From Arenibacter arenosicollis (GTDB taxonomy: Bacteria; Bacteroidota; Bacteroidia; Flavobacteriales; Flavobacteriaceae), in assembly GCF_014397245.1 (NCBI RefSeq), contig NZ_JACLHY010000005.1, positions 62,001-126,000 of the forward strand: a DNA stretch of 64,000 bases. Direction: 5' to 3'. The notes below the pieces were generated by a model that saw only the letters and a program-made list of their open reading frames with translations, was not told the origin of the DNA and ran no database searches. The position numbers and the translations under genes are program-made. Position 1 is the stretch's first letter. Each line of letters begins with the position of its first letter. This document shows positions 21,798 through 60,504 of the stretch, piece after piece.

Positions 21798-24665
21798 TCA
21801 ATTATTCTTTACGGCTCTAATGGCCTCAACAAAATGTATAGGCCTTGCACTTGTGAAATGTTGTATCTGGTGGCGGCAGCTGAATCCACAGGCCACTACT
21901 TTGTGGTCTTTTTGTAGTTTTTCTATTGCCGGAAACAGAATTTCCTCCCCAATTTTTTTGGATATATTGTAGTGCTCCTTTTCATAACCGAAGGAACCCG
22001 CCATTCCGCAACAACCGGATGGAATCTCTGTAACCTGCTTGGAATTCTTTAATAGGGATTTCATGGCATTTGTGCCGTACAACGCTTTTTGATGACAATG
22101 CCCGTGAATGGCAACACCTTCTGAAACGGATTCGAAATCGACCTCCAAATGACCCTTTGTGTATTCGTCGGCTAGAAAAACGTCGATCATCATTACGCCA
22201 TTCTTTAATTGATCGGCCATGTCCTGATCGGCAATTAAATCTGGTAAGTCATCGTTTAATGCGGAGGCACAACTAGGTTCGCAAACCACCACTTTTAGGC
22301 CCTGATCTAAAAATAGCTTTAAGCCTTCTATGGTTTTGGCCCCCTCTTTTTTCGCATCCCTTAAAAATCCATGGGATATTTTTGGTCTTTGGCAGCAGCC
22401 TAAATTGGCCAAAATAACTTCATATCCGCAGGAATTTAATAATTCCAAAGCTGAAATCCCAATATGTGGTTCATGATAATTAAGATAGGTATCGGCAAAC
22501 AACACCACCTTTTTATTGCCTGTATTCGTTTTTTTGGCATTTTTTTCGAACCATTTATAAAAGGGTTCTTTTGCAAAATCGGGCAAGGTCCTCCGTTTGT
22601 CGAATTTTGCGGTACGCTCCAAAAACGATCGGAATAGGGCACTCCTTTGAATGCTGTTTACAATGCCGGCTTTCCAACCAGAGATATTCGCAGCTGCTTT
22701 TGCCGATCCGCGGATCAATTTATCCCTAAAGGTGATGCCATGTTCATCATAGTACATTTGAAGGGAATCGCTTTTCATTTTTGCCATATCCACATTACTG
22801 GGGCATTCGGATTTACAGGCCTTGCAGGAGAGGCAGAGATCCATGACCTCATGCAAGCGTTTGCTCGCAAGTCCCTCCAATCCGAATTGATTGGACATTG
22901 CCATTCTAAGTGCATTGGCCCTGCCACGGGTGGAATGCTCCTCTTCCCGTGTGGCCTTAAAACTGGGACACATGGTCCCACCCAGTATTTTTCGGCATTC
23001 CCCGACCCCGGTGCACATATGTACCGAGGCAGCAAAACCTTCTTCGGACTTATACTGATATTCCGTTTTTACGGTCTGATCTTTATACCCCGTACCGTAG
23101 CGCAAATTGTGTTCTATGGACTGTGCCTCGACAATTTTACCGGGGTTCATCAGGTTATCGGGGTCGAAAAGTTTTTTTATTTCCAAAAAAGCACCGTACA
23201 AGGTATCTCCGAAGAAGCGCTTGTTATAGGCACTCCGTACCAGACCATCGCCATGTTCTCCGCTCCAGGACCCCTTGTATTTCATTACGAGTTCAAAGGT
23301 ATCCTCCGTAATGGCCTTCAATCGCTCAATGTCTTCGGCCAGTCTGAGGTCCAATATGGGACGGACGTGAATTACGCCTACGCTGGCATGGGCGTACATC
23401 CCAGCCTTTGTGCCATGTTTTTCGCATACCTTTAAAACTTGGGTTATATATTCCGCCAAGTGTTTGGATGGGATTCCGGCATCTTCGATAAAGGCTAGGG
23501 GTTTTTTATTTCCTTTTATGCCCAACATAAGTCCCAATCCCTTTTTGCGGATGACCCATACATCTTCATAGGCCTGCCCCTCCGGAAAAAGGGGGTAGGC
23601 ATATCCAACGCCATTGTTCTTTAATTGGGCGATCATAAGCTTCGGTATGTCCATAACATCTTCCATGGTGTCCCCATAAAATTCTACGATCAATATGGCC
23701 CCGGGATTCCCTTCTATAAAGTGACTATGATGTTTTGTAGTTAAATTTTGCCTGCTGAGGTCCACCACGGTCTTGTCCAATATTTCAATGGCCGAGGGAG
23801 CATAGGGCAACATGGATTCTACTGCCGAAATGGCTTCCAAGACTTCCGTAAAATGTACCACACAGACGGATTTGTGTTTGGGCAGATCCGTTAAATTTAG
23901 TTTTAGCTCCAAGGTAGTAGCCAATGTGCCTTCGCTGCCACAGATCAATTTGCCCAGGTTCCATTGGTCGGTATACACAAATTCATCCAAATTATACCCG
24001 CCAACCCTTCGCATCACTTTGGGAAAGCGTTCTTTAATTTCTTCGGAATGCTTATGTATCAGTTTTCTAAAGGAGGCATAAATTTCACCCTCCCTATCCG
24101 TTTGAGAGGCTTTTTCCGAATATTCCGCCGGGGGACAGTTCTTTAGCTGCAATTGGGTGCCATCGGCCAATAGCACGGAAGCTTCAAGAACATGGTCCAC
24201 CGTTTTTCCATATAAAATACTTTTGGTTCCTGATGAATTGTTGCCGACCATTCCCCCTACGTTAGCTCTACTACTGGTTGCGGGATCAGGGGCAAAATGC
24301 AGGCCATAAGGCTTTAAGACCTCATTTAGATCGTCCCTGACCATACCCGGTTGTACCCGTACCCATTTTTCCTTTTCGTTTATTTCCAACAAGCTGTTCA
24401 TGTGTTTTGAAAAATCCAATATCATGGATTCCCCAACCGTTTGCCCCGCCAGACTGGTGCCGGCACCTCTAGGAAGTATCGTTATTTTATTTTCATATGC
24501 CACGGCAACGGCTTTTTTAACATCCTCTGAATCCTTGGGCAAAACAACTGCTAGTGGTTTGATCTGGTAGATACTGGCGTCAGTGGCATACATGCCCAAG
24601 CTGTAGTTGTCCGTTAGCACTTCGCCCTTTACTGAATTCCGTAGGTTATCAAATACATATTTCAT
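21798..24665 (-). CDS. Fused FAD/Fe-S 2-hydroxyacid dehydrogenase (glycolate or D-lactate oxidase)
   Basis: The 955-residue protein joins what are GlcD and GlcF in many bacteria. Residues 30-230 form the FAD-binding PCMH domain (ILPRGAGTSLAGQTVGESMILDFS in two parts, and MVGNNSSGTKSILYGKT), followed by the C-terminal FAD-oxidase cap. Then come Fe-S ligands (CTGVGECRKILGGTMCPSF and CLSCKACKSECPSNVD) and two Cys-rich CCG regions (LGCCQRPKISHG and SGCCGMAGSFGYEKEHY). It oxidises a D-2-hydroxyacid and passes electrons to the respiratory chain. The gene lies 10 bp after the permease and 48 bp before the aminotransferase. Sequence alone does not separate glycolate from D-lactate. Confidence 0.9.
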   Translation of the reverse strand: MKYVFDNLRNSVKGEVLTDNYSLGMYATDASIYQIKPLAVVLPKDSEDVKKAVAVAYENKITILPRGAGTSLAGQTVGESMILDFSKHMNSLLEINEKEKWVRVQPGMVRDDLNEVLKPYGLHFAPDPATSSRANVGGMVGNNSSGTKSILYGKTVDHVLEASVLLADGTQLQLKNCPPAEYSEKASQTDREGEIYASFRKLIHKHSEEIKERFPKVMRRVGGYNLDEFVYTDQWNLGKLICGSEGTLATTLELKLNLTDLPKHKSVCVVHFTEVLEAISAVESMLPYAPSAIEILDKTVVDLSRQNLTTKHHSHFIEGNPGAILIVEFYGDTMEDVMDIPKLMIAQLKNNGVGYAYPLFPEGQAYEDVWVIRKKGLGLMLGIKGNKKPLAFIEDAGIPSKHLAEYITQVLKVCEKHGTKAGMYAHASVGVIHVRPILDLRLAEDIERLKAITEDTFELVMKYKGSWSGEHGDGLVRSAYNKRFFGDTLYGAFLEIKKLFDPDNLMNPGKIVEAQSIEHNLRYGTGYKDQTVKTEYQYKSEEGFAASVHMCTGVGECRKILGGTMCPSFKATREEEHSTRGRANALRMAMSNQFGLEGLASKRLHEVMDLCLSCKACKSECPSNVDMAKMKSDSLQMYYDEHGITFRDKLIRGSAKAAANISGWKAGIVNSIQRSALFRSFLERTAKFDKRRTLPDFAKEPFYKWFEKNAKKTNTGNKKVVLFADTYLNYHEPHIGISALELLNSCGYEVILANLGCCQRPKISHGFLRDAKKEGAKTIEGLKLFLDQGLKVVVCEPSCASALNDDLPDLIADQDMADQLKNGVMMIDVFLADEYTKGHLEVDFESVSEGVAIHGHCHQKALYGTNAMKSLLKNSKQVTEIPSGCCGMAGSFGYEKEHYNISKKIGEEILFPAIEKLQKDHKVVACGFSCRHQIQHFTSARPIHFVEAIRAVKNN

Positions 24666-50103: not shown

Positions 50104-50826
50104 TTATCCTTTTTTTACAATTTTAGAGTTTGAGGACAATTTTTGATGTACAATGGTGGCATTACCCTTATAGGATAGCACACTATTTCCACTGGCATCG
50201 ACTGAAATGGAATTGTTTACTGTAAGATAGGCATTGCTGTTACCGGAGAAGTCAATTTTTAGCGTTTCAACACTTAGGTCGTAATCTGATATTTCAGAGT
50301 TTCCTCTTAGATTCACATCCATAGTTTTTACACTTCCTGAAAAATCGATCATACAGTTTCCTGAAGCATCCACGTCAAGGTTTTCAACCTCCAAAGGGCC
50401 GGAAATGAAGCTATTTCCTGTAAGATTTATTTTTAGATTATCTGTTTCCAAAGGATCTTCCAATACCAATTTAGCGTTGCCCACAATGGTAAAATTATTG
50501 ATTTTCTTGGTGGTAATAAACACGTTCAAGGTTTCCTTTCCTTTTATTCTACGAACATTGTCCAATTTCACGGTTAACTTGTTACTTTCCTTGCCAACTA
50601 AGATATACTCATGAAGGTTTTCGTTCGCCTGAACTCTCAATTTTTCCTCTGTATCCGAAAAGTTTATGTAAACCTTGAAATTATCGTTTACTTCCAAGGA
50701 AGTGTAGCCAGAGAATTCAAAGTCCTTTGTGGTAATTTCCGAGGAGGCCGTAATAGTCTCCTTTTCACAGGATAATAATAGAATTGAAAAAACAATTACA
50801 AAACTTATTTTTGATGTAGTACTCAT
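50104..50826 (-). CDS. DUF2807 (head-GIN domain) lipoprotein
   Basis: The start at 50826 gives a lipoprotein signal (MSTTSKISFVIVFSILLLSC, Cys20); an ATG at 50907 would bury it. The 240-residue protein has the DUF2807 beta-helix-like repeat, seen as alternating S-G-N-S and N-D/L-x-G-N-S turns (LTGNSFISG, ASGNCMIDFSG, LRGNSEISD, FSGNSNAYL, ASGNSVLSY). These proteins are common in Bacteroidetes as putative surface adhesins; their role is unknown. It is the first gene after the 41-codon ORF and its hairpin, so it may have its own promoter in 50827-50970. Confidence 0.85.
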   Translation of the reverse strand: MSTTSKISFVIVFSILLLSCEKETITASSEITTKDFEFSGYTSLEVNDNFKVYINFSDTEEKLRVQANENLHEYILVGKESNKLTVKLDNVRRIKGKETLNVFITTKKINNFTIVGNAKLVLEDPLETDNLKINLTGNSFISGPLEVENLDVDASGNCMIDFSGSVKTMDVNLRGNSEISDYDLSVETLKIDFSGNSNAYLTVNNSISVDASGNSVLSYKGNATIVHQKLSSNSKIVKKG

Positions 50827-50969
50827 TTCTTGTTTTTTTAGATTGATTATTTCTTTGCTGAGACCAGTAAATAGATTAGAAAAACAGTATATATAACATA
50901 TATACATTTTCTGTAAAATTCAATACCTAGATTTTTCATAGTACATTTATTTAGAGATTTTTTTAAGTT

Positions 50970-50997
50970 AAAATGGTGTTTAAGACACCACCATTTT
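50970..50997. terminator. Hairpin after the 41-codon ORF
   Basis: AAAATGGTG pairs with CACCATTTT (9 bp). On the minus strand the stem starts 6 bp after the stop of the small ORF and ends in TTTT, then AACTTAAAAAAA; it is a weak terminator or attenuator. Confidence 0.5.
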
Positions 50998-51003
50998 TCC
51001 GTT

Positions 51004-51129
51004 TTAATAAGCGGCCGTGAAACGTCTTAAGGCCGACCATTGACTTCTTTTGCCATATTTCATTTGTGAAAAGAAGACATGTTTATTGGATTCTGTGGGT
51101 ATTCTTCGATAATTATCAAATGCTTTCAT
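51004..51129 (-). CDS. 41-residue basic peptide under the shared operator promoter
   Basis: The ATG at 51129 is about 24 nt after the expected start of transcription from the promoter at 51160-51206, with an A-rich leader (aatcaaaaaaaataaagtc) as is usual for Bacteroidetes. It encodes MKAFDNYRRIPTESNKHVFF and continues to ALRRFTAAY: net positive, no signal peptide, no membrane segment. A longer frame up to 51246 would begin before the promoter and is rejected. A hairpin follows the stop, so this looks like a complete small gene. It could instead be a small RNA that happens to be open. No homologue is known to me. Confidence 0.5.
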   Translation of the reverse strand: MKAFDNYRRIPTESNKHVFFSQMKYGKRSQWSALRRFTAAY

Positions 51130-51159: not shown

Positions 51160-51206
51160 CAAAGATCGTTTGGAATATAACTGCCCACAATCGCATATGT
51201 ATGTGG
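51160..51206 (-). promoter_or_regulatory. Operator-promoter 1 of the propeller-kinase regulon (41-codon ORF)
   Basis: On the minus strand the dyad CCACATACATATGCGA (51206-51191) is followed by TTG, then after exactly 23 bp from the dyad by GATCTTTG (51167-51160). This is the same layout as four other sites at 53458, 54191, 57593 and 57729. Confidence 0.75.
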
Positions 51207-51325
51207 AAGATTGATGGTTCCCCATCTTCCTTATGCCGCCAGTCACATTTTAAATAACATTCTTTTTAAACCACTCATTTCTAATGATTGAAAAGAATGG
51301 GTACCTTATAACTACTATATTTTTA

Positions 51326-53419
51326 CTAGGGTAGGGATACATTTCCAAGGCTTAGGTCCTCAAAAATATTTACCATGTCATAATCCGAGTTCAATGACGT
51401 TCTGTTGTCTTCCAAGACAATGCCGTAACCATGACCATGCGCGATTTTCGAATTCTTAATGGTCAAATTGGCTAAGTAATCCCCGTCAAGACCAATACTC
51501 GCAATTTTGGCTACCCCTGGCATTTCAGTTTTTCCGGCGTAGAGCACCTCCGTTTGGTCTAGCATGTTTTTAACGTTGTCCGATTGAATACGGATTCCGT
51601 TCCAGAAACCTTTGCTGGCATTGGCCCCGGTAAAAACAATCTTGTTGGCATCCGTGCCTTTGGCAATTAAATATCCGTTTGGGAAAACCCCTAACATTTT
51701 ATCTTCCGCAAACTTAAATACAGCTCCGGGAAGTATTTTTAAGCCGGATTGAATTCCTAAATTGCCACTCACCAAATAGCTGGCGCCAAAATGCAGGGCG
51801 GGCCAAACAGTCTCGCTTCCATCTGGACTGAACAGAGTAGATCCAATAATTTCAACTCCATTATGGCCATTGCCCATAAATTCCATTCCTGCGGCATCAT
51901 TTAATTTTTTTACTTGATTTGCGGACACTGACATGGCAGGACCTTGGTTTTCATGAAATTTTACAAATGCCAACGATACAAGTTCGGCTCCGTTTTCAAC
52001 GTACAGTCCGTTACCGCCACTGTGGGCAATTTTGGTACTACCCAGCTTCAATTTGGACTCATTGGCTCCTTCCAGTCCAATGGCAGTCTTGTTGTGTAGG
52101 CCACTCATGATTTCACTTCCGGCATCGTGGATTTCTACATAGTTCATTTCATTTTTCATATCGGCCGACATAAAGGAGATACCTTTCCAATACCCTCCGT
52201 CCAAGGATTCGATTCCACGAAATTTAATGGGGTCTTGAGGACTGCCAAGGGCAATTAAATAGCCTCTCTTGGTAATATTGATTTCAGAGTCCTTGTCCAT
52301 GTACAATTCAAGGCCTCCCAAAATCCTTAGCCCGGAAACCACCTCTATTTTTCCCTTCACAATGTATTTTGCATCTAAAGAAAGACCCGAGCCGTTGTAA
52401 AAATCGCTCCATACGGTTTCTTCAGTACCATCGATTCGGTCACCGATGATTTCTATATCGTCTTCTTCATTATTTTGAAATTCGGACAAGCTGGATACAA
52501 CCCCAAACTGTGAGGCAGGTATCCTCATAATTTTTTTGTTGTTCCTATAAACATTAAAAGATTCGGTATTCCACTTAGCTCCAACTTCAACGGCCATGGC
52601 ATAGGCAGCACTATACTGAATAATCGAGGAGACTAGGTTAAGGTGGCCTGGACCCTCATTGGCGATACCCAAACTAGTAGCAACCTCCATACCTTGGGCA
52701 ATGGCACCACCTCCGTATTCAATGGTAACCCGGTCTAACTTGTTTAATGGACTATTGGAGTTTATAATCAATCCCTTCCAATATCCAGGAACCTTGTTCT
52801 TACCCGTAAAAATGATAAACGAGCTGGCCGTTGCGGTTGTTATGATGGCCCCGGGATTATCTATAAACATAGCGGTATTTTCTTCAAAGGCAATAACAAC
52901 GTTTGGATCTATGGTAAGTAGGGCCGTTACATGAATATCGCCTGTTACCAGATAATCAAATTTGTTAGGGTCGTCAAATACATTGGCCAAATGAATGCGT
53001 TCCGTAATATTCTCTGAAATAATTATAGTTTCCTGCAAAGGAGGGTTTTCTCCGTCTTTTGCTATAATTGCAAGTTCATCCGTATCATAGAATTCGGTAT
53101 TGAAAATTTTTAGTTCCACCGAATAATTCCCTGGTTTGTCTGGAGTAAATTTAGGTTTGGCCGTTGTTTCTTCCGTCAATTCGGTTAAACTGCCGTTAGG
53201 CTTGGTCTTTATTTTCCATAGATACTGGAATGGTTTACCAGCTTTATCCTTGGATTTGGAACCATCCAAGACCACGGTCTCACCGGTAAGGATTTCTCCT
53301 TGATAGTCGTCGACTACCTTTGCCTCCAAGGTGTTTGCTGGAATTTCACTGCTGTCGTCCTCAGAACAGCCGATTATCATTAAGAAGAAGATGGAAAGTA
53401 GAATTAGTTTTGTTTTCAT
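51326..53419 (-). CDS. Large beta-helix lipoprotein with N-terminal PKD-like domain
   Basis: The lipoprotein signal ends at Cys18 (FFLMIIGC). Residues 30-120 are a PKD-like sandwich (VVLDGSKSKDKAGKPFQYLW, PGNYSVELKIFNTE). The rest consists of three related modules of about 190 residues, each with a KYIVKGKIEVVSGL-like strand, a GYLIA-x-G block, a GYWKGI- or GFWNGI-type turn and a late I-A-H-S/G-H-G-x-G sequence; this fits a right-handed parallel beta-helix. The 697-residue protein is probably displayed at the surface, with no catalytic site seen. It has its own operator-promoter with a leader of about 32 nt, and is one of the outputs of the adjacent two-component system. Confidence 0.82.
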   Translation of the reverse strand: MKTKLILLSIFFLMIIGCSEDDSSEIPANTLEAKVVDDYQGEILTGETVVLDGSKSKDKAGKPFQYLWKIKTKPNGSLTELTEETTAKPKFTPDKPGNYSVELKIFNTEFYDTDELAIIAKDGENPPLQETIIISENITERIHLANVFDDPNKFDYLVTGDIHVTALLTIDPNVVIAFEENTAMFIDNPGAIITTATASSFIIFTGKNKVPGYWKGLIINSNSPLNKLDRVTIEYGGGAIAQGMEVATSLGIANEGPGHLNLVSSIIQYSAAYAMAVEVGAKWNTESFNVYRNNKKIMRIPASQFGVVSSLSEFQNNEEDDIEIIGDRIDGTEETVWSDFYNGSGLSLDAKYIVKGKIEVVSGLRILGGLELYMDKDSEINITKRGYLIALGSPQDPIKFRGIESLDGGYWKGISFMSADMKNEMNYVEIHDAGSEIMSGLHNKTAIGLEGANESKLKLGSTKIAHSGGNGLYVENGAELVSLAFVKFHENQGPAMSVSANQVKKLNDAAGMEFMGNGHNGVEIIGSTLFSPDGSETVWPALHFGASYLVSGNLGIQSGLKILPGAVFKFAEDKMLGVFPNGYLIAKGTDANKIVFTGANASKGFWNGIRIQSDNVKNMLDQTEVLYAGKTEMPGVAKIASIGLDGDYLANLTIKNSKIAHGHGYGIVLEDNRTSLNSDYDMVNIFEDLSLGNVSLP

Positions 53420-53457
53420 TATCCTGATATTGAGTTATTGTTTCAATTTTTTCAGGA

Positions 53458-53504
53458 CAAAGGAAGTCAGGAACTTTAGTACCTACAATCGCATAAGTAT
53501 GTGA
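53458..53504 (-). promoter_or_regulatory. Operator-promoter 2 of the regulon (beta-helix lipoprotein)
   Basis: The minus strand reads TCACATACTTATGCGA (53504-53489), then TTG, and TTCCTTTG at 53465-53458, 23 bp after the dyad. It lies just before the lipoprotein ATG at 53419. Confidence 0.78.
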
Positions 53505-53542
53505 ATTTGAGGGCTAATTTGTGGGTTTGAATCAAGAATATG

Positions 53543-54175
53543 TTATAATAGCCTATCCTTAAAAGCCTTGGCCACTGCTTCACTTTTGCTGTTTACATGA
53601 AGTTTTTCATAGATTTTTTTAATGTGGGACCGTACGGTATCTATGGCGATGAAGAGCTCCGAAGAAATCATTTTATAGCTGTATCCATCTACCAAAAGTT
53701 GTAGTACCTGGGTCTCCCTTTCACTAAGGCAATAGTCCTGGTTCTTGGTTTGAGGAATTACCTGGAACATCTTTAGAACTTGTGTGGCAATGGAGGAGGT
53801 CATGGGAGCACCTCCCAAGGTGGCATCTTGTATATATTCCAACAGTTTGGCCGGTGGGGTCTTCTTCAACAAATAACCATTGGCCCCGTTTCTCAGGGCC
53901 TCAAAAACATTTTTATTGTCGTCAAAGACGGTTAGCATCAATACTTTAACTTCTGCATCTACTTCCCTTATTTTCTTAAGGCCTTCCAGTCCATCTGTCC
54001 CTGGCATATTGATATCCATCAAGACTACATCGGGTGACCATTTTTCTACTTCTTCGGCAACATTGTTGCAATTTTTGTACGATGCCAAAACGGAAAATCC
54101 ATCACTACCATTGATCAACATGGTAAGTCCCTCACGAAATTGGGGATTATCCTCATATATTACTACACTTATCAT
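53543..54175 (-). CDS. NarL/LuxR-type response regulator
   Basis: The 210-residue protein has a receiver domain with acidic pocket YEDN, phosphoacceptor Asp54 (VVLMDINMPG), Thr in MLTVFDD and Lys in LLKKTPP. The C-terminal LuxR helix-turn-helix (LSERETQVLQLLVDGYSYKM, VRSHIKKIYEKLHV; about 145-205) binds DNA as a dimer, often at dyads. Its gene follows the sensor kinase by 71 bp on the same strand, yet has its own operator-promoter in that gap, with a leader of only about 9 nt. It is the likely activator of all five operator sites, including its own. Confidence 0.95.
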   Translation of the reverse strand: MISVVIYEDNPQFREGLTMLINGSDGFSVLASYKNCNNVAEEVEKWSPDVVLMDINMPGTDGLEGLKKIREVDAEVKVLMLTVFDDNKNVFEALRNGANGYLLKKTPPAKLLEYIQDATLGGAPMTSSIATQVLKMFQVIPQTKNQDYCLSERETQVLQLLVDGYSYKMISSELFIAIDTVRSHIKKIYEKLHVNSKSEAVAKAFKDRLL

Positions 54176-54190
54176 AACTGTCGCTTTTTG

Positions 54191-54237
54191 TAAAGTTAGG
54201 CCCGAATTCCATAAGATAAAATCACATAAATATGTTA
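54191..54237 (-). promoter_or_regulatory. Operator-promoter 3 of the regulon (response regulator)
   Basis: The minus strand reads TAACATATTTATGTGA (54237-54222), and TAACTTTA (54198-54191) 23 bp later. It sits between the kinase stop and the regulator start, so the regulator can be made from an internal promoter. The -33 triplet is TTT instead of TTG. Confidence 0.72.
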
Positions 54238-54246
54238 AAATGACCT

Positions 54247-57200
54247 TTACCGTACAGGAATTCCCAAACAGATTTCTGTTCCAAGATCTGTCTTACTGTC
54301 TATTTTCAATTTTCCTTTAAGATTTGATGCCCTTTTAACCATATTGTCCAGACCATTGCCACTATCTACCTTTTCTACTTCGAAGCCTATTCCGTTGTCC
54401 ATGATTTGCAATTTTAACCACCTATCCTTGTAGGTAAAGAGCACCTTTGCCCGTTTGGCTTGGGAATATTTAGCTATGTTGTTGATGGCCTCCTTGAATG
54501 TAAGAAAGAGGTCGCGCCGGGCTTCCATATCCAGTTTTAAATCATTTATTTTATCATCTACCTCAAAGTTGAACTCAATGTTCCGGGCCTCCAAAATTCC
54601 AGTCGCATATTCCCTCATCCTTGCAATTACCCTGTGCATGTTGTCGTTGTCCGGTTTAATGCTCCAAACAATATCATCCATGGCCTCCATCATTCTTTGG
54701 CTGTTATCGGTAATCTTGGAAAGGTAGTTGCTGCTGGTTACGGTGTCATTGTTCATTTTGCTCTTGGCCATAGAACTGAGGATGTTTATAGTGCTCAGGG
54801 TAGAACCCATGTCATCATGTAGGTCCCTAGCCACCTTGTTCCTTAAATTTTCAACTGCCAATATTCGGTTTACCTTAAGGCGATAAATAAAATAGGTGAT
54901 ACCCAATACCGTTAATAGGATTAAGGAAATAAACCACCAAGTACGATAGAAGGGCGGAAGTATTCGGAAATCGATATTGGTAATTTCATCGGGTTCCAGG
55001 CCCTGTAGGTTCATACATTTTACTTGGAAGGTATATTTTCCTGAGGGCATTGTGGTGTAGGTTGCGGCCAAATCCTTTTCGGCCTTTACCCAATCTTTGT
55101 TAATTCCCGGAATACGATAGAAGTATTGTATTTTTTTTTGCTGCGAAAAGCTCAGTGCGGAAAAATAGAAAGTAAACGAATTTTGATAATGATTAAAAAT
55201 AATTTCTTTTTGGGTCATTATCGAATCCACGGACAAGTATGTATTGAATAGCTTAAAATCGGTGATGCTTACTTTGGGAGGCTTTTGTTTAAAATTCAGT
55301 TTTTCGGGCGAAAACCCAAACACTACATCCTCACCACCAAACCATATCTCCCCATTTTGCATCATCCATTTGGCACTGTTGGTCTTTTCCGCATAGATTA
55401 CCCCATGGAGGTTGTTATAGGAACTAATGATGTTCTTGTCATAGTTATAACTGCTTAGGCCATTGCTGGTAATCATCCAGGCGATACCTTCGCGGTCCAT
55501 CATCAGCTGCAACACCTTTGATCCAAATAAGCCTTCATAGGAAGTAATTTTTCTAACCTTGGAAGTATTAATGTTGAGGATGTTCAATGCCTCGGTCCCC
55601 AATAAAAAAATACTGTCATTATATTGCTGGATGTCGAAAATAGTATTGTCCACAATCCCATAACTGTCGCTGAACTCCTTGTTAAAATGAAACAAGATTT
55701 CATTGGTGTTTACATCAATAACATATACACCTTGCTTGTGCGTTCCCACCCATAACCTACCTTGATCATCTACATAGAGTCGGTAAATAATGGTATTGAA
55801 ATGATGCACTTCCTCAAAGTTTTCATCGGCAATGGGATCCGTCTTGTTCCATTTTACCAAACGCCCGCTTTGGGTGCCAAACCAAAGGTTTCCATTGCGG
55901 TCTTCTTTTAACTGACGAATGGTAGAATTACTAAAAACAGGTGGATGCAACCAATGAAGTCCCTTTTTCTTTTGAGGGTCAAATACGGCCAATCCGCCTC
56001 CTTGACAGCCAGACCAAACATAGCCGGATTCACTATGCTGTTGAAGATCCCAGATGGAAGAGTATTTAGCAATGGATTCCGTCCCCAGACCAACATAGGG
56101 ATTGGCGTCCAATTTTATGAATTTATCATTATAAAATAGAATACCTTTGCCCCAAGTTCCAATCCAGTTTTCCTTGTCCTGGGTTTCCAGTATTGCATTT
56201 ACAGGTGAGTCCAGCCCTAGGCCATCAATGACTACCAGACTGTAAACATCCTTCTGGTTGGGATTCATAACATAAAGTCCATTCTCTGTACTCAACCAGA
56301 TATTGCCTTCCCTGTCCTCAAAGATATGTCTTGTCTGATTACATTTAATGTCGAACTCCAAAGGGTTTGACTTAAGATGTTGGTAAAAACCTTGAAGGTC
56401 ATTGTCATAGCTCAACAATGAATTTTCGCCTCCTATCCATATCTGTCCTGAACTGGTCTCCAGAATTTGCCTTAGAACCGTATATTTTTTTGTAGGCCAT
56501 TTGCTTCCCAATGTATCAGGTAGAATTTTGTTGGTATTTGGGTCGAAATGAAGAAGAACAGGGTGTTCCCTGTGTGGACTGTAGTCCCAATACGTAACCC
56601 ACCAAGTACCATTTTTGTCTTTAATGAAATCCCCGGAGTTTGTAATTGCCTTGTCGTTCAACAGGGGTATGCCCTCCGGATTATTGTGCCTGTAAAATAC
56701 TTCGCCGCTGGTACTACGGTATACGGCAAGACCCTGTTCACTACAGATCCAATATTCCCCAGTTTCCTTGTCCTCAAAAAGGGATCCAACACCCCATCCT
56801 CTGGGAATTTTTATAGGTAAATTGGATTCAACAAAAGACTTGGAATTATCATCGTACCATAAAAGACCATATTTGGAAGCGCATAAGAATACCTGATTCT
56901 TACTGTCGACATAGAGTGTGAATTCCGATCTAGGGGGGATGCTGCCAAAACTTCGTATTGGAACAGAGGTATAGTGAAAATCTACAGTATTGAATTTCCC
57001 GATCTGGCCTCCTTGTAAGAGCCATAAATCGCCATTGCCAGCATCTAAAATTTGATCTACACCGATGCTTGGTGGTAGCTGGTAATTTTCGGGACCAACA
57101 TAGGATAAAAATTTTCTGCCATCAAAACGCTGTATGCCCACCTCGGTGCCTATCCAGAGAAAACCTTTTGGGTCTTGCCAAACACATTTCACCTTGTTGG

Positions 57201-57303
57201 TGGCTAAACCATCGGCGGTAGAAAATCTATTGAAAACATAAGAGTTCTGTCCAAAAATATAGGTTTGGAAACATAACAAGCAAAAAAGAATTCTTATGCT
57301 CAT
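54247..57303 (-). CDS. Two-component propeller sensor histidine kinase (Reg_prop, HisKA_3)
   Basis: A signal peptide (MSIRILFCLLCFQTYIFGQ) is followed by a large periplasmic sensor built of propeller repeats of the form W-x-G-T-x-x-G-x-x-x-x-D (FLWIGTEVGIQRFDG, NIWLSTENGLYVMNP, NLWFGTQSGRLVKWN, RLWVGTHKQGVYVID). A Y_Y_Y domain (about 700-780, FYRIPGINKDWVKAE) and one transmembrane helix (WWFISLILLTVLGITYFIY) lead to HisKA_3 with His829 (ARDLHDDMGSTLS) and an ATPase with MDNGIGF and GNGLDNMVKRA. The 1018-residue protein stops there, whereas classic hybrid versions carry a fused regulator; here the regulator is the next gene. Such sensors often detect oligosaccharides. Confidence 0.94.
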   Translation of the reverse strand: MSIRILFCLLCFQTYIFGQNSYVFNRFSTADGLATNKVKCVWQDPKGFLWIGTEVGIQRFDGRKFLSYVGPENYQLPPSIGVDQILDAGNGDLWLLQGGQIGKFNTVDFHYTSVPIRSFGSIPPRSEFTLYVDSKNQVFLCASKYGLLWYDDNSKSFVESNLPIKIPRGWGVGSLFEDKETGEYWICSEQGLAVYRSTSGEVFYRHNNPEGIPLLNDKAITNSGDFIKDKNGTWWVTYWDYSPHREHPVLLHFDPNTNKILPDTLGSKWPTKKYTVLRQILETSSGQIWIGGENSLLSYDNDLQGFYQHLKSNPLEFDIKCNQTRHIFEDREGNIWLSTENGLYVMNPNQKDVYSLVVIDGLGLDSPVNAILETQDKENWIGTWGKGILFYNDKFIKLDANPYVGLGTESIAKYSSIWDLQQHSESGYVWSGCQGGGLAVFDPQKKKGLHWLHPPVFSNSTIRQLKEDRNGNLWFGTQSGRLVKWNKTDPIADENFEEVHHFNTIIYRLYVDDQGRLWVGTHKQGVYVIDVNTNEILFHFNKEFSDSYGIVDNTIFDIQQYNDSIFLLGTEALNILNINTSKVRKITSYEGLFGSKVLQLMMDREGIAWMITSNGLSSYNYDKNIISSYNNLHGVIYAEKTNSAKWMMQNGEIWFGGEDVVFGFSPEKLNFKQKPPKVSITDFKLFNTYLSVDSIMTQKEIIFNHYQNSFTFYFSALSFSQQKKIQYFYRIPGINKDWVKAEKDLAATYTTMPSGKYTFQVKCMNLQGLEPDEITNIDFRILPPFYRTWWFISLILLTVLGITYFIYRLKVNRILAVENLRNKVARDLHDDMGSTLSTINILSSMAKSKMNNDTVTSSNYLSKITDNSQRMMEAMDDIVWSIKPDNDNMHRVIARMREYATGILEARNIEFNFEVDDKINDLKLDMEARRDLFLTFKEAINNIAKYSQAKRAKVLFTYKDRWLKLQIMDNGIGFEVEKVDSGNGLDNMVKRASNLKGKLKIDSKTDLGTEICLGIPVR

Positions 57304-57592
57304 GCAACCACATGGTTTATATTAAAATTACGCAAAGATTTGACATCCAATCTATAAAAAATCTTAAATGATTTTTTATCTTGGAAGTCCTGTCATGTGG
57401 TGATAGATTCAAGTTTTGTTTAGAATAATATTGTAATCCACAGGTCCATTAATAATTTTATTAGAAGAAGAAAAAGTGCTAACATGATGGTCTTTTTTTT
57501 TTTTGATTGATGAATAAACCCTTTTCATTTAAATGAGCTTAAGTGTAAGGAATTTTTTCAATTTCCATAAACAACCAAGCTATCGAATTGGA

Positions 57593-57639
57593 CAAATGTA
57601 GACCAAGTTGGCAATTCAGGAAATAGCATAAATATGTGA
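57593..57639 (-). promoter_or_regulatory. Operator-promoter 4 of the regulon (sensor kinase)
   Basis: The minus strand reads TCACATATTTATGCTA (57639-57624), and TACATTTG (57600-57593) after exactly 23 bp. The -7 box matches TAnnTTTG fully. The distance to the kinase ATG is about 290 bp. Confidence 0.68.
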
Positions 57640-57728
57640 AAATAGACTTCCTCAATTCTGGAAATAGATTATGAAAAAAAATTATTCAGCGATTTTTCTC
57701 CCGGTCTTTTATGCTCCCTAATTAAATA

Positions 57729-57775
57729 TCACATTCATATGTGATTGTGCGGTATCACCTATCTCTAGACCTTTG
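57729..57775 (+). promoter_or_regulatory. Operator-promoter 5 of the regulon (S41 peptidase)
   Basis: TCACATTCATATGTGA at 57729-57744, then TTG, then GACCTTTG at 57768-57775 with 23 bp after the dyad. The leader to the ATG at 57876 is about 95 nt. Confidence 0.77.
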
Positions 57776-57875: not shown

Positions 57876-59315
57876 ATGAAAACAAAAGTAATATTACAGT
57901 GCGGTTTTATAATGGCCCACCTCTTTTGTGGCCTTAAGGTATCAGGACAAAGTGTATTGACGCTTCCCCAGCTAAAGGAAGATTTTCAATTCTTCAGGAC
58001 AGCTATGGAGGAAGCACACCCCGGAATCTATAGATATGAAACCAAATCTGTTTTGGAAGACAGCTTTGATGTGGTTTCCAAAGCGTTGGTTGGACCAATG
58101 ACCCAGCAGGAGTTTTACAAGAAATTGAATCCTATAGTGGCAAGAATTGGATGTGGACACACCAAGCTAATGCCTTCAGAGGATAAAGGGTTTATGTATT
58201 ATTACAATACTGAAAACCTATTTCCCTTAAAATTATTTTTGGAAGGACACAAGGCGTATGTACTCTCCAGCTATGATAGTTCCATTAAAATTAAACCAGG
58301 AACGGAAATTATAGGTATCAATGGTATGGCGATAAAGGATATTATTAACGGGTTGTTGAACAATCTGTTTTCTGATGGGCATAACCAGACCTTCAAGTAT
58401 TATGAGCTGAATAGGTACTTCAGCGCATTATTTTCTAATTTTTATTTGGAGGAAGGAATGGGTAACGACAAAATTAGCATTACATATAAGGACCACGGGC
58501 GGAAGGGTAGAATGGATCTACCGGTGGTTTCTTACCAATGGATAAAGGAAATTGATGAAGAAGAAGGGAATAAAATACCTTATCAATTGGAATTCAAGGA
58601 AGGCAATACCGCTCTCATGACCATCCGTACCTTTTGGCCAGACCAGGAGAAATATAATTTTGAAGAATTTTTAAAGCAATCTTTTGCCTCTATCAACGAT
58701 AAAAACATTCAGAATTTAATATTGGATTTAAGAGGTAATGAAGGAGGGAAGGATGGCTTTGGAGCCTTGTTATTGTCCTATTTAATGGATGCCGAATTTA
58801 GGTATTACGATAAACTTTTGCTGGCAACCAACGAAAAATTTTCATTTGTGGAGCATGCCCAATTACCAGAGGGTTATGACCAGTTAAGGGCATTGATAAC
58901 CCAGACTGAGGATGGGGAGTTCCGATGGGAACACAATGAAAACCTCAATATTCAAACCCCACAAGAGAATCGGTTTACCGGTGAGGTATTTGTACTTATA
59001 GATGGGGCTTGTTTCTCGGTAACCTCCGAGTTCAGTGCTGTAGCACATTCCTTGGGTAGAGCCACATTTGTAGGGGATGAAACCGGAGGTGGGTATTATG
59101 GGAATAATAGTGGAGCCTTTGCAATAGTCACTCTGCCAAATTCCAAAATAGAGCTTGGTATTCCCTTGATGGCCTATTATACAGCGGTGCAGGATTATGA
59201 ATTTACAGATCGTGGAATTATGCCCCATTACCAGGTGCAACCTACGATTACAGGTGTTTTATCGGGTAGGGATGAGGTTATGGAACGGACAATGAAAATC
59301 ATAAAAAAAAGATAG
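57876..59315 (+). CDS. Secreted S41-family peptidase
   Basis: A signal peptide runs to about residue 25 (CGFIMAHLFCGLKVSGQS). The helical N-terminal domain (LKEDFQFFRTAMEEAHPGIY) and PDZ-like region (IKPGTEIIGINGMAIKDII) precede the protease core: ILDLRGNEGG near 285, then VLIDGACFSVTSEFSAVAHS with the candidate nucleophile Ser, and GDETGGGYYGNNSG. Tail-specific proteases of this group cleave C-termini outside the cytoplasm; this branch has no known substrate. Its promoter carries the same operator as the adjacent two-component genes and faces away from the kinase, so it is an output of that system. The 479 residues are normal for the group. Confidence 0.87.
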   Translation: MKTKVILQCGFIMAHLFCGLKVSGQSVLTLPQLKEDFQFFRTAMEEAHPGIYRYETKSVLEDSFDVVSKALVGPMTQQEFYKKLNPIVARIGCGHTKLMPSEDKGFMYYYNTENLFPLKLFLEGHKAYVLSSYDSSIKIKPGTEIIGINGMAIKDIINGLLNNLFSDGHNQTFKYYELNRYFSALFSNFYLEEGMGNDKISITYKDHGRKGRMDLPVVSYQWIKEIDEEEGNKIPYQLEFKEGNTALMTIRTFWPDQEKYNFEEFLKQSFASINDKNIQNLILDLRGNEGGKDGFGALLLSYLMDAEFRYYDKLLLATNEKFSFVEHAQLPEGYDQLRALITQTEDGEFRWEHNENLNIQTPQENRFTGEVFVLIDGACFSVTSEFSAVAHSLGRATFVGDETGGGYYGNNSGAFAIVTLPNSKIELGIPLMAYYTAVQDYEFTDRGIMPHYQVQPTITGVLSGRDEVMERTMKIIKKR

Positions 59316-59358: not shown

Positions 59359-59886
59359 ATGGCAGTTCAAATGGCAATCGAAACAGAGAATCTATGGTTG
59401 GTTCCATGTAATGCAGAAATGCTTAAAATAGCCATTAAGGGCAATAAGCAACTTTCTAAATTACTTGGAGCGGCTCTTGTGGACCAGTGGACCACATTTG
59501 GAGTTGATGCTTTACGGTATGCTATGGACCAACTTTCAGCTAGCTCATTAGAATTTGGGTGGTGGACCTATTTTCCAATTCATAAACTGGATAATATGCT
59601 GATTGGCTGTGGGGGATACAAGGGAAGTCCAACTAAAGAAGGTACAGTAGAATTGGGTTATGAAATTGCTTCAAGATATTGTAATAGAGGGCTTGCTACT
59701 GAAATGGCAAGAGGATTAATTTTGAATGCATTTGCGGATAGTCGGATAAAATCCATTTTGGCGCATACCTTGGGAGAATCAAATGCCTCCACAAGAGTTT
59801 TAGCAAAATGCGGCTTCGTAAAAAAGGAAGAAATTTATGACATGGAAGATGGTCTCATTTGGAAATGGGAGTTAATCAGGCCTTAA
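59359..59886 (+). CDS. GNAT acetyltransferase
   Basis: The 175-residue protein has the acetyl-CoA-binding segment YEIASRYCNRGLATEMARGL and the later strand ILAHTLGESNASTRVLAKCG typical of RimJ/RimL-like enzymes. A second ATG at 59371 is an equally plausible start. It follows the peptidase by 43 bp. The natural acceptor is unknown. Confidence 0.87.
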   Translation: MAVQMAIETENLWLVPCNAEMLKIAIKGNKQLSKLLGAALVDQWTTFGVDALRYAMDQLSASSLEFGWWTYFPIHKLDNMLIGCGGYKGSPTKEGTVELGYEIASRYCNRGLATEMARGLILNAFADSRIKSILAHTLGESNASTRVLAKCGFVKKEEIYDMEDGLIWKWELIRP

Positions 59887-59964: not shown

Positions 59965-60504
59965 ATGGAAAAAAGAAATCTGGTCTTTATAGCAACAAGT
60001 TTGGATGGATATATCGCCGATAGGAATGGTGGATTGGATTGGCTTACCTCTGTTCCTAATCCCGAGCTATCGGATATGGGTTATAAAAATTTTGTGGCAC
60101 AGGTGGATGCTTTGGTAATGGGGCGTAATACCTTTGAAACCGTTTGTGGCTTCGATGGTGATTGGCCTTACAACCAACCTGTATTTGTATTGAGTAGCAC
60201 TTTGAAAACTATCCCTGAGAAATATAGAGACAAAGCAGAATTGGTTAAAGGAAGCTTAAATGAAATCCTGAAGCAAATACATGATAAGGGATACCATAAT
60301 CTTTATATCGATGGAGGTGTAACCATACAGAATTTTTTAAAGGAAGATCTAATTGATGAAATGACAATTACAACCATCCCCATAGTTTTGGGAGGAGGGA
60401 CTGCGTTGTTCTTGCAACTTTCCAAGGAATTGGAATTTAGTCTAGTGGAATCTAAAGTGCTTTTAAATCAGATAGTCCAGAATCATTACCTCAGGAAGGT
60501 ATAA
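59965..60504 (+). CDS. DHFR-like/RibD C-terminal reductase
   Basis: The 179-residue protein shows the family opening VFIATSLDGYIADRNGGLDW, then MGRNTFETV, a YIDGGVTIQNFL block and TTIPIVLGGGTALF. These belong to the RibD C-terminal / YyaP-YwjB group of NADPH-dependent reductases. The substrate in this group is mostly unknown; it is not a housekeeping folate reductase. It stands 78 bp after the acetyltransferase on the same strand. Confidence 0.9.
   Translation: MEKRNLVFIATSLDGYIADRNGGLDWLTSVPNPELSDMGYKNFVAQVDALVMGRNTFETVCGFDGDWPYNQPVFVLSSTLKTIPEKYRDKAELVKGSLNEILKQIHDKGYHNLYIDGGVTIQNFLKEDLIDEMTITTIPIVLGGGTALFLQLSKELEFSLVESKVLLNQIVQNHYLRKV

Follow-up and report, generated by a model that had tools for sequence, protein, structure and literature searches.

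A conserved inverted-heptamer operator at fixed promoter spacing in a predicted NarL-type two-component regulon of Arenibacter arenosicollis and other Bacteroidota

Sensors that combine Reg_prop and Y_Y_Y domains are found in the hybrid two-component systems (HTCS) of Bacteroidota, and positive autoregulation with short secreted peptides under the same regulator is found in the peptide-pheromone two-component systems of Firmicutes. In the account given in PMC4549865, the response regulator NarL of Escherichia coli binds inverted heptamers two bases apart (7-2-7 sites) and activates napF from −40 to −49 and yeaR from −38 to −47; in PhoPQ-MgrB, as described in PMC8404706, a small protein of the regulon inhibits the kinase. 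Here we analyze a 64,000-nucleotide stretch of the Arenibacter arenosicollis genome (positions 62,001 to 126,000 of contig NZ_JACLHY010000005.1, assembly GCF_014397245.1; hereafter the window), which encodes a NarL-type response regulator and a propeller histidine kinase and in which five candidate promoters carry one dyad operator.

The kinase of this locus shares with HTCS a Reg_prop propeller and a Y_Y_Y sensor, but it is a HisKA_3 kinase accompanied by a separate NarL-type regulator gene, which places the system outside the HTCS definition. Predicted positive autoregulation and secreted-looking short peptides recall the pheromone systems of Firmicutes, although the hosts here are Gram-negative and the sensor is a propeller. 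As in PhoPQ-MgrB, the response regulator is predicted to govern genes for short proteins; the peptide sequences differ, however, and nothing indicates contact between peptide and kinase here. The locus resembles NarL at napF and yeaR of E. coli in joining a receiver domain to a LuxR-type helix-turn-helix (HTH) and in a 7-2-7 site near −42 to −45 with an activating role, which in our case is predicted, whereas its heptamer (TCACATA, versus TACCCCT in the engineered NarL site of PMC4549865), propeller kinase, Bacteroidota promoter and small autoregulated regulon with peptide genes set it apart. Among the matches listed for open-access full text, we found no description of a Bacteroidota propeller kinase combined with a TCACATA operator and peptide genes, in agreement with an earlier sequence-only reading of the window that knew of no system with such a composition. 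NarL-type regulators with 7-2-7 sites are already known; the short open reading frames (ORFs) behind the operator and the recurrent S41 peptidase, DUF2807 and c-type cytochrome targets are new.

A pattern scan recovered, at the stated positions, all five dyads that the sequence-only reading had proposed, with one or two mismatches each to TCACATA-NN-TATGTGA, and the claimed gap of exactly 23 bp to a promoter box was confirmed at every site. Operator 1 (51191-51206, minus strand; box 51160-51167, GATCTTTG) precedes a 41-codon ORF, operator 2 (53489-53504, minus strand; box 53458-53465, TTCCTTTG) a lipoprotein gene, operator 3 (54222-54237, minus strand; box 54191-54198, TAACTTTA) the response regulator gene, operator 4 (57624-57639, minus strand; box 57593-57600, TACATTTG) the kinase gene, and operator 5 (57729-57744, plus strand; box 57768-57775, GACCTTTG) an S41 peptidase gene. 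TTG directly adjoins the dyad at operators 1, 2 and 5, three sites in all, as had been claimed, and TTT occupies its place at operators 3 and 4. Each site points toward a start codon, as had been noted, at varying distances (~290 nt from operator 4 to the kinase ATG, ~100 nt from operator 5 to the S41 ATG). Compared with the Bacteroidota promoter elements given in PMC7366714 (−7 TAnnTTTG, −33 TTTG), one window box matches the −7 element at 6/6 positions and four match at 5/6. With the box centred at −7, the 23-bp gap would put the centre of the dyad near −42.5 from the predicted transcription start. One further dyad match in the window, with three mismatches, lies at 24649.

The composite of dyad, TTG, fixed spacing and box (TCACATNNNNATGTGATTG-N20-TANNTTTG, at most three mismatches, with the reversed pattern as control) is significant, unlike the dyad alone. 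The 5.40-Mb A. arenosicollis genome holds 7 composite sites versus 1 for the reversed pattern; five lie in the window and two outside it, before a 39-codon ORF (C77:141885) and an alpha/beta hydrolase gene (C12:229314). A genome-wide scan with the spacing included, which had been suggested as a check, returned seven matches and not hundreds. The argument that fixed spacing at several promoters is hard to obtain by chance holds for the composite and fails for the dyad by itself, and the regulon, first described as five promoters, contains those five and extends beyond them in this genome and in others. Composite matches outnumber reversed ones 117 to 3 in 27 genomes chosen by locus (five of which coincide with our own genome or share an assembly with members of the set of 60 relatives described below) and 184 to 3 in 38 further genomes, for a pooled count of 301 versus 6 in 65 genomes carrying the regulator.

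We then compared orthologous loci, defined as the best 80 of 383 related stretches from a contig scan, which encode regulators 72–98% identical to ours and belong to Flavobacteriaceae, Chitinophagaceae, Cyclobacteriaceae, Prolixibacteraceae and other families; the nine named records at 94–98% identity are all Arenibacter. In the 80 loci the best composite lies 51–95 bp before the regulator start codon, with a dyad-to-box gap that measures 23 bp in 69 of them and 22 bp in the other 11, and TTG directly follows the dyad in 50. C4 and G13 of the dyad are invariant, and the 12 fixed dyad positions are matched at 12 in 6 loci, 11 in 36, 10 in 21, 9 in 13 and 8 in 4. Because a best match always exists, we compared each locus with 100 dinucleotide shuffles of its own 130-bp upstream stretch, 8000 in all (top score 18). 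Summed scores in the 80 loci were 13 in 1, 14 in 6, 15 in 17, 16 in 32, 17 in 18 and 18 in 6, compared with shuffles that reached 13 in 1.9% of cases, 14 in 0.2% and 16 in none. All told, 79/80 loci score at least 14, and none of these is equalled by its own 100 shuffles. Conservation of the regulator-gene site in relatives, part of a check proposed from the window alone, is clear, and the predicted system is not peculiar to A. arenosicollis, its putative operator being conserved in distant Bacteroidota relatives.

Within the genus, the regulator, kinase, lipoprotein and peptide sites are each present in 9/9 Arenibacter loci (L106-L114), and the S41 site in 8/9, being missing in L113. In Kriegella (L115) the regulator and lipoprotein sites are retained and the site before the kinase gene is weaker; A. 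certesii (L116) retains a site before the kinase gene, and its regulator (10/12, 22 bp) and lipoprotein sites are imperfect. No S41 or peptide sites were seen in the scanned stretches of these two. The spacing holds more widely: among 341 deduplicated dyads from our own locus and the 80 others (at least 11/12 positions, counted per strand; box at least 5/6), a box lies at 23 bp in 105 cases, at 22 bp in 12 and at 37–39 bp in 37, with at most 9 boxes at any other distance from 0 to 60 bp. By our own count, 21 of the 37 dyads in the 37–39 bp class are immediately upstream of a kinase homologue; these come from Chitinophagaceae, Cyclobacteriaceae and other groups (e.g. L124, L171, L174, L168 and L137). 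A few members of the class are shadows of 23-bp sites.

The regulator gene (53543-54175, minus strand) encodes 210 aa with Response_reg (Pfam, 4.3e-26) and GerE (2.9e-17) domains, both above cut-off, a combination that places it in the NarL/FixJ group. Its best NCBIfam match is the NarL equivalog, for which it scores 151.4 bits where 250 would be needed; nitrate, suggested as the signal by the resemblance to NarL, was dropped because the regulator falls below that cut-off. D54, counted by eye, is the candidate phospho-acceptor. Residues 179-189, which we take to lie in the recognition helix, are identical in 80/80 orthologues. The kinase gene lies 71 bp away (54247-57303, minus strand) and encodes 1018 aa with Reg_prop, Y_Y_Y, HisKA_3 and HATPase_c domains (Pfam, above cut-off); neither a receiver nor an HTH domain, including the AraC type, was found in it by Pfam at E ≤ 0.001.

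In the sequence-only reading, the dyad was proposed to be the binding site of the NarL-type regulator, which would activate from a position next to the −33 element and control its own synthesis and that of its kinase. Our comparisons support this proposal: the composite stands before the regulator gene in the 80 loci and, in the nine Arenibacter loci, before the gene for the kinase too, tracks the presence of the regulator and has one main spacing, and the arrangement of inverted heptamers with a 2-base gap, at the five window sites as in the 80 loci, is that of NarL in geometry alone. We estimate at roughly 0.83 the probability that the regulator binds this 7-2-7 operator near −42.5 and activates its own gene, the propeller-kinase gene and a small envelope/secreted regulon. 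In such a circuit the kinase propeller would presumably read a periplasmic signal and the kinase would phosphorylate the regulator, a dimer of which would bind the inverted heptamers two bases apart and, once on the operator, contact polymerase at a promoter with weak −33 and −7 elements and activate transcription. By switching on its own gene and that of the kinase, the regulator would generate positive feedback. The envelope and secreted targets in the window would be the 41-codon peptide and DUF2807 genes, the lipoprotein gene, and the S41, GNAT and RibD_C genes; outside it, in the same genome, they would be the 39-codon peptide gene and the alpha/beta hydrolase gene.

Several observations weigh against this reading. 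The dyad by itself gives 6 window matches at up to three mismatches versus a shuffle mean of 3.62, with 17/100 shuffles reaching 6, and 18 sites in our own genome at up to two mismatches versus 13 for the reversed pattern; being near chance level, dyad-only scans were dropped as stand-alone evidence. The 80 loci are not 80 independent events, because all were found via the regulator and many come from sister species. Seventeen of the 80 regulator-gene sites are degenerate, matching 8 or 9 of the 12 dyad positions, and one locus (L179, score 13) is within reach of chance, since 2 of its 100 shuffles equal it. A kinase homologue, full or partial (34–94% identity), shares the locus with the regulator in 70/80 cases; the remaining ten have none in the stretch covered. 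For three of these (L127, L138 and L147) the stretch covers less than 6 kb of upstream sequence, an excuse that does not apply to the remaining seven. Finally, in many other lineages the dyad of the kinase gene belongs to the 37–39 bp class and lies ~1.5 helical turns further upstream, for which class II geometry gives no explanation.

The best of the alternatives accepts that the regulator binds the dyad and makes it a repressor, with negative autoregulation that a signal would relieve. A dyad next to the −33 element could obstruct polymerase, NarL itself represses frdA in the account of PMC4549865, where one of the sites near the start is a 7-2-7 site, and operator position is not uniform, as the kinase-gene dyads of the 37–39 bp class demonstrate. 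However, repression needs no particular spacing, whereas the single main spacing kept over many promoters and lineages (105/341 dyads at 23 bp) suits activation by contact, and 4/5 window boxes are non-consensus (5/6), as expected of activator-dependent promoters. We consider repression unlikely.

A still less probable alternative is that another DNA-binding protein encoded at the locus, or a general Bacteroidota factor, reads the dyad and that the regulator gene is a mere target. Contact by the regulator itself is what we infer, the ten loci without a nearby kinase fit this alternative as well, and the presence of the regulator at every locus is no evidence by itself because the loci were chosen by it. 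The distribution of the composite among 60 relatives bears on the question. An orthologue of the regulator at 82% identity or more occurs in 11 of them, our own genome included, the next best among the matches listed being 41–45% identical. These 11 genomes hold 68 composite matches, 3 to 8 each (A. certesii, G007, has 3, one of them at the locus). In contrast, the 49 relatives without an orthologue hold 6 scattered matches, at most one per genome, compared with 8 reversed matches over all 60. Residues 179-189 are, moreover, invariant along with the operator core, and the 7-2-7 geometry matches that of NarL. It is thus very improbable that a protein other than the regulator reads the dyad. The last alternative, that dyads and spacing are a coincidence, as the near-chance dyad-only counts might suggest, or a repeat shared within one locus, has virtually no probability left: it is refuted by 301 composite versus 6 reversed matches in 65 genomes, by the few matches in the 49 relatives without an orthologue and by 79/80 loci beyond their shuffles. 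The dyad-to-box stretch, moreover, varies in sequence from site to site and from species to species but hardly in length.

In an even sample of the phylum, the regulator was found at E ≤ 1e-80 in 2/148 genomes, our own included; the predicted system is patchy in Bacteroidota and strongly conserved where present. Because the regulator is 72–98% identical across distant families and yet missing from most relatives searched, it may possibly have spread horizontally. Locus L283 (G084:C2) carries a second regulator copy, 60% identical, behind a variant site, TAGCATAATCATGTGA, a possible case of a diverged operator and paralogue. Upstream of 24 more distant regulators, 28–45% identical, the TCACAT dyad is absent. 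Five of them have other dyads at a distance of 22–23 bp from something like a box, each dyad being common to two or three loci: L050 and L054, and L051 with a poorer fit, have TACG..CGTA, and L047 and L048 have YTACCCG..GAGTAA. None is significant, 18 to 101 of 300 shuffles reaching the score in the five loci. We treat as a lead and no more the idea that distant NarL-type regulators may keep the geometry and differ in their heptamers.

The mRNA leader of the kinase gene (57303-57590) would be ~290 nt long and contains a 39-codon ORF; relatives show ORFs like, yet unequal to, this one. A near-full-length kinase paralogue, 29% identical, is encoded on the same contig outside the window (G000:C45:18143-21064); two further genomes of the genus also encode a counterpart. 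Several Chitinophagaceae have a gene for an Acyl_transf_3 membrane protein (~369 aa) between kinase and regulator (L117:6822-7928 by Pfam; equivalents in L124, L148, L172, L160, L146, L150 and L159 by eye). Scans of the locus for sigma-70 promoters (34 versus 32.8 in shuffles) and for terminators (12 versus 10.4) gave about the numbers of their controls.

The predicted targets in the window include genes for envelope or secreted proteins. The lipoprotein-like protein behind operator 2 (51326-53419, minus strand), putatively a beta-helix protein according to the sequence-only reading, is large, with 697 aa and a lipobox recognized by eye, and has a weak PKD match below cut-off (PF22352, 3.1e-05). 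Behind operator 5, the S41 peptidase gene (57876-59315, plus strand; Pfam 5.2e-17) is followed after 43 nt by a GNAT gene (59359-59886, plus strand; Pfam) and after a further 78 nt by a RibD_C gene (59965-60504, plus strand; Pfam), the third behind this operator; the three genes possibly form one operon. A RibD_C-type gene stands directly behind the operator in L319, by eye. The DUF2807 (head GIN) gene (50104-50907, minus strand; Pfam 6.6e-36) lies 3′ of the 41-codon peptide gene.

For candidate targets elsewhere, 19 representatives were scanned with Pfam, and first genes were chosen by a simple ORF rule and no gene caller. S41 peptidases recur behind the operator (L117 and L286 by Pfam, others by eye), as do DUF2807 proteins, in clusters of 13 (ten from Arenibacter) and 5 (L159 by Pfam). 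A c-type cytochrome lipoprotein lies behind the operator, outside the locus, in 7/11 Arenibacter genomes (L252 by Pfam), and a c-type cytochrome does so in other lineages in a 9-member cluster (L133 by Pfam); these lipoprotein targets, in L252-L258, the L133 cluster, L269 and L320, belong to two distant lineages. Our own c-type cytochrome homologue (61% identical, C45:136458) and those of two sister genomes have no upstream dyad, and because of this lack the cytochrome was ruled out as a target in A. arenosicollis. Other targets include serine beta-lactamase-like proteins (L117 and L278), hemerythrin (L148; the L123 match is below cut-off), an OmpA-like protein (L271), an ECF sigma factor (L165) and an alpha/beta hydrolase (our own genome and L034). 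Polysaccharide-utilisation genes were absent from the annotated targets, in which no search was aimed at them.

Short ORFs are frequent behind the operator. The 41-codon peptide gene (51004-51129, minus strand), probably the first gene behind operator 1, is conserved in 10 genomes with a pooled ratio of nonsynonymous to synonymous changes (pN/pS) of 0.21 and has no Pfam or NCBIfam match; a stem-loop 3′ of it (50974-50990) was called on the plus strand alone, and we therefore claim no terminator there. We surveyed the next ORF after 184 dyad sites in 81 loci, counting as short those with 30–109 codons and no long ORF. Short ORFs alone followed 46 sites, long ORFs 110 and neither 28, and 38/81 loci have at least one short ORF behind a dyad; 46 and 38 are upper figures, because some entries, among them a truncated hemerythrin and ORFs in the leader of the kinase gene, are probably not peptide genes. 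The same loci contain 869 TAnnTTTG boxes that lack a dyad, and 101 of these lead to a short ORF. Thirty-nine of the 46 short ORFs behind dyads begin with MK, compared with 12 of the 101 controls, and a Trp lies near the C-terminus of 31/46 versus 23/101, a comparison inflated by related species and a lead only.

Pooled pN/pS values for five families, for which we give no significance figure, were 0.21 (10 sequences), 0.34 (3), 0.65 (10), 0.40 (5) and 0.42 (3). Pfam gave no match for the nine short ORFs scanned, and NCBIfam no credible match for seven, one at E 0.058 being judged chance. One family of ~75-residue peptides has, by eye, a signal-peptide-like start and a terminal aromatic residue. 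At 10 loci of Chitinophagaceae and kin, a peptide family with a signal-peptide-like start varies in its middle and is conserved at its aromatic C-terminus; another family there is encoded divergently from the kinase gene, a few hundred bases away, with the same operator upstream. In the two Arenibacter peptides, inspection by eye revealed no hydrophobic segment. That the peptides are secreted and sensed by the kinase propeller, which would make a self-inducing peptide-signalling loop in Gram-negative Bacteroidota, is a speculative proposal to which we give little credence.

The operator of a Bacteroidota response regulator can thus be read from sequence together with a promoter spacing rule. 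The reversed control implies that about 1/50 of composite matches arise by chance (6 versus 301), and with the operator, the spacing rule and this low rate the regulons of a scattered system can therefore be listed in dozens of species. Such lists point to peptide genes that, where scanned, lack a Pfam match, as well as to envelope targets that recur; both the signal and what the peptides do thereby become open to testing. The predicted system would also offer a clean case for studying how an activator is positioned at the unusual promoter of Bacteroidota.

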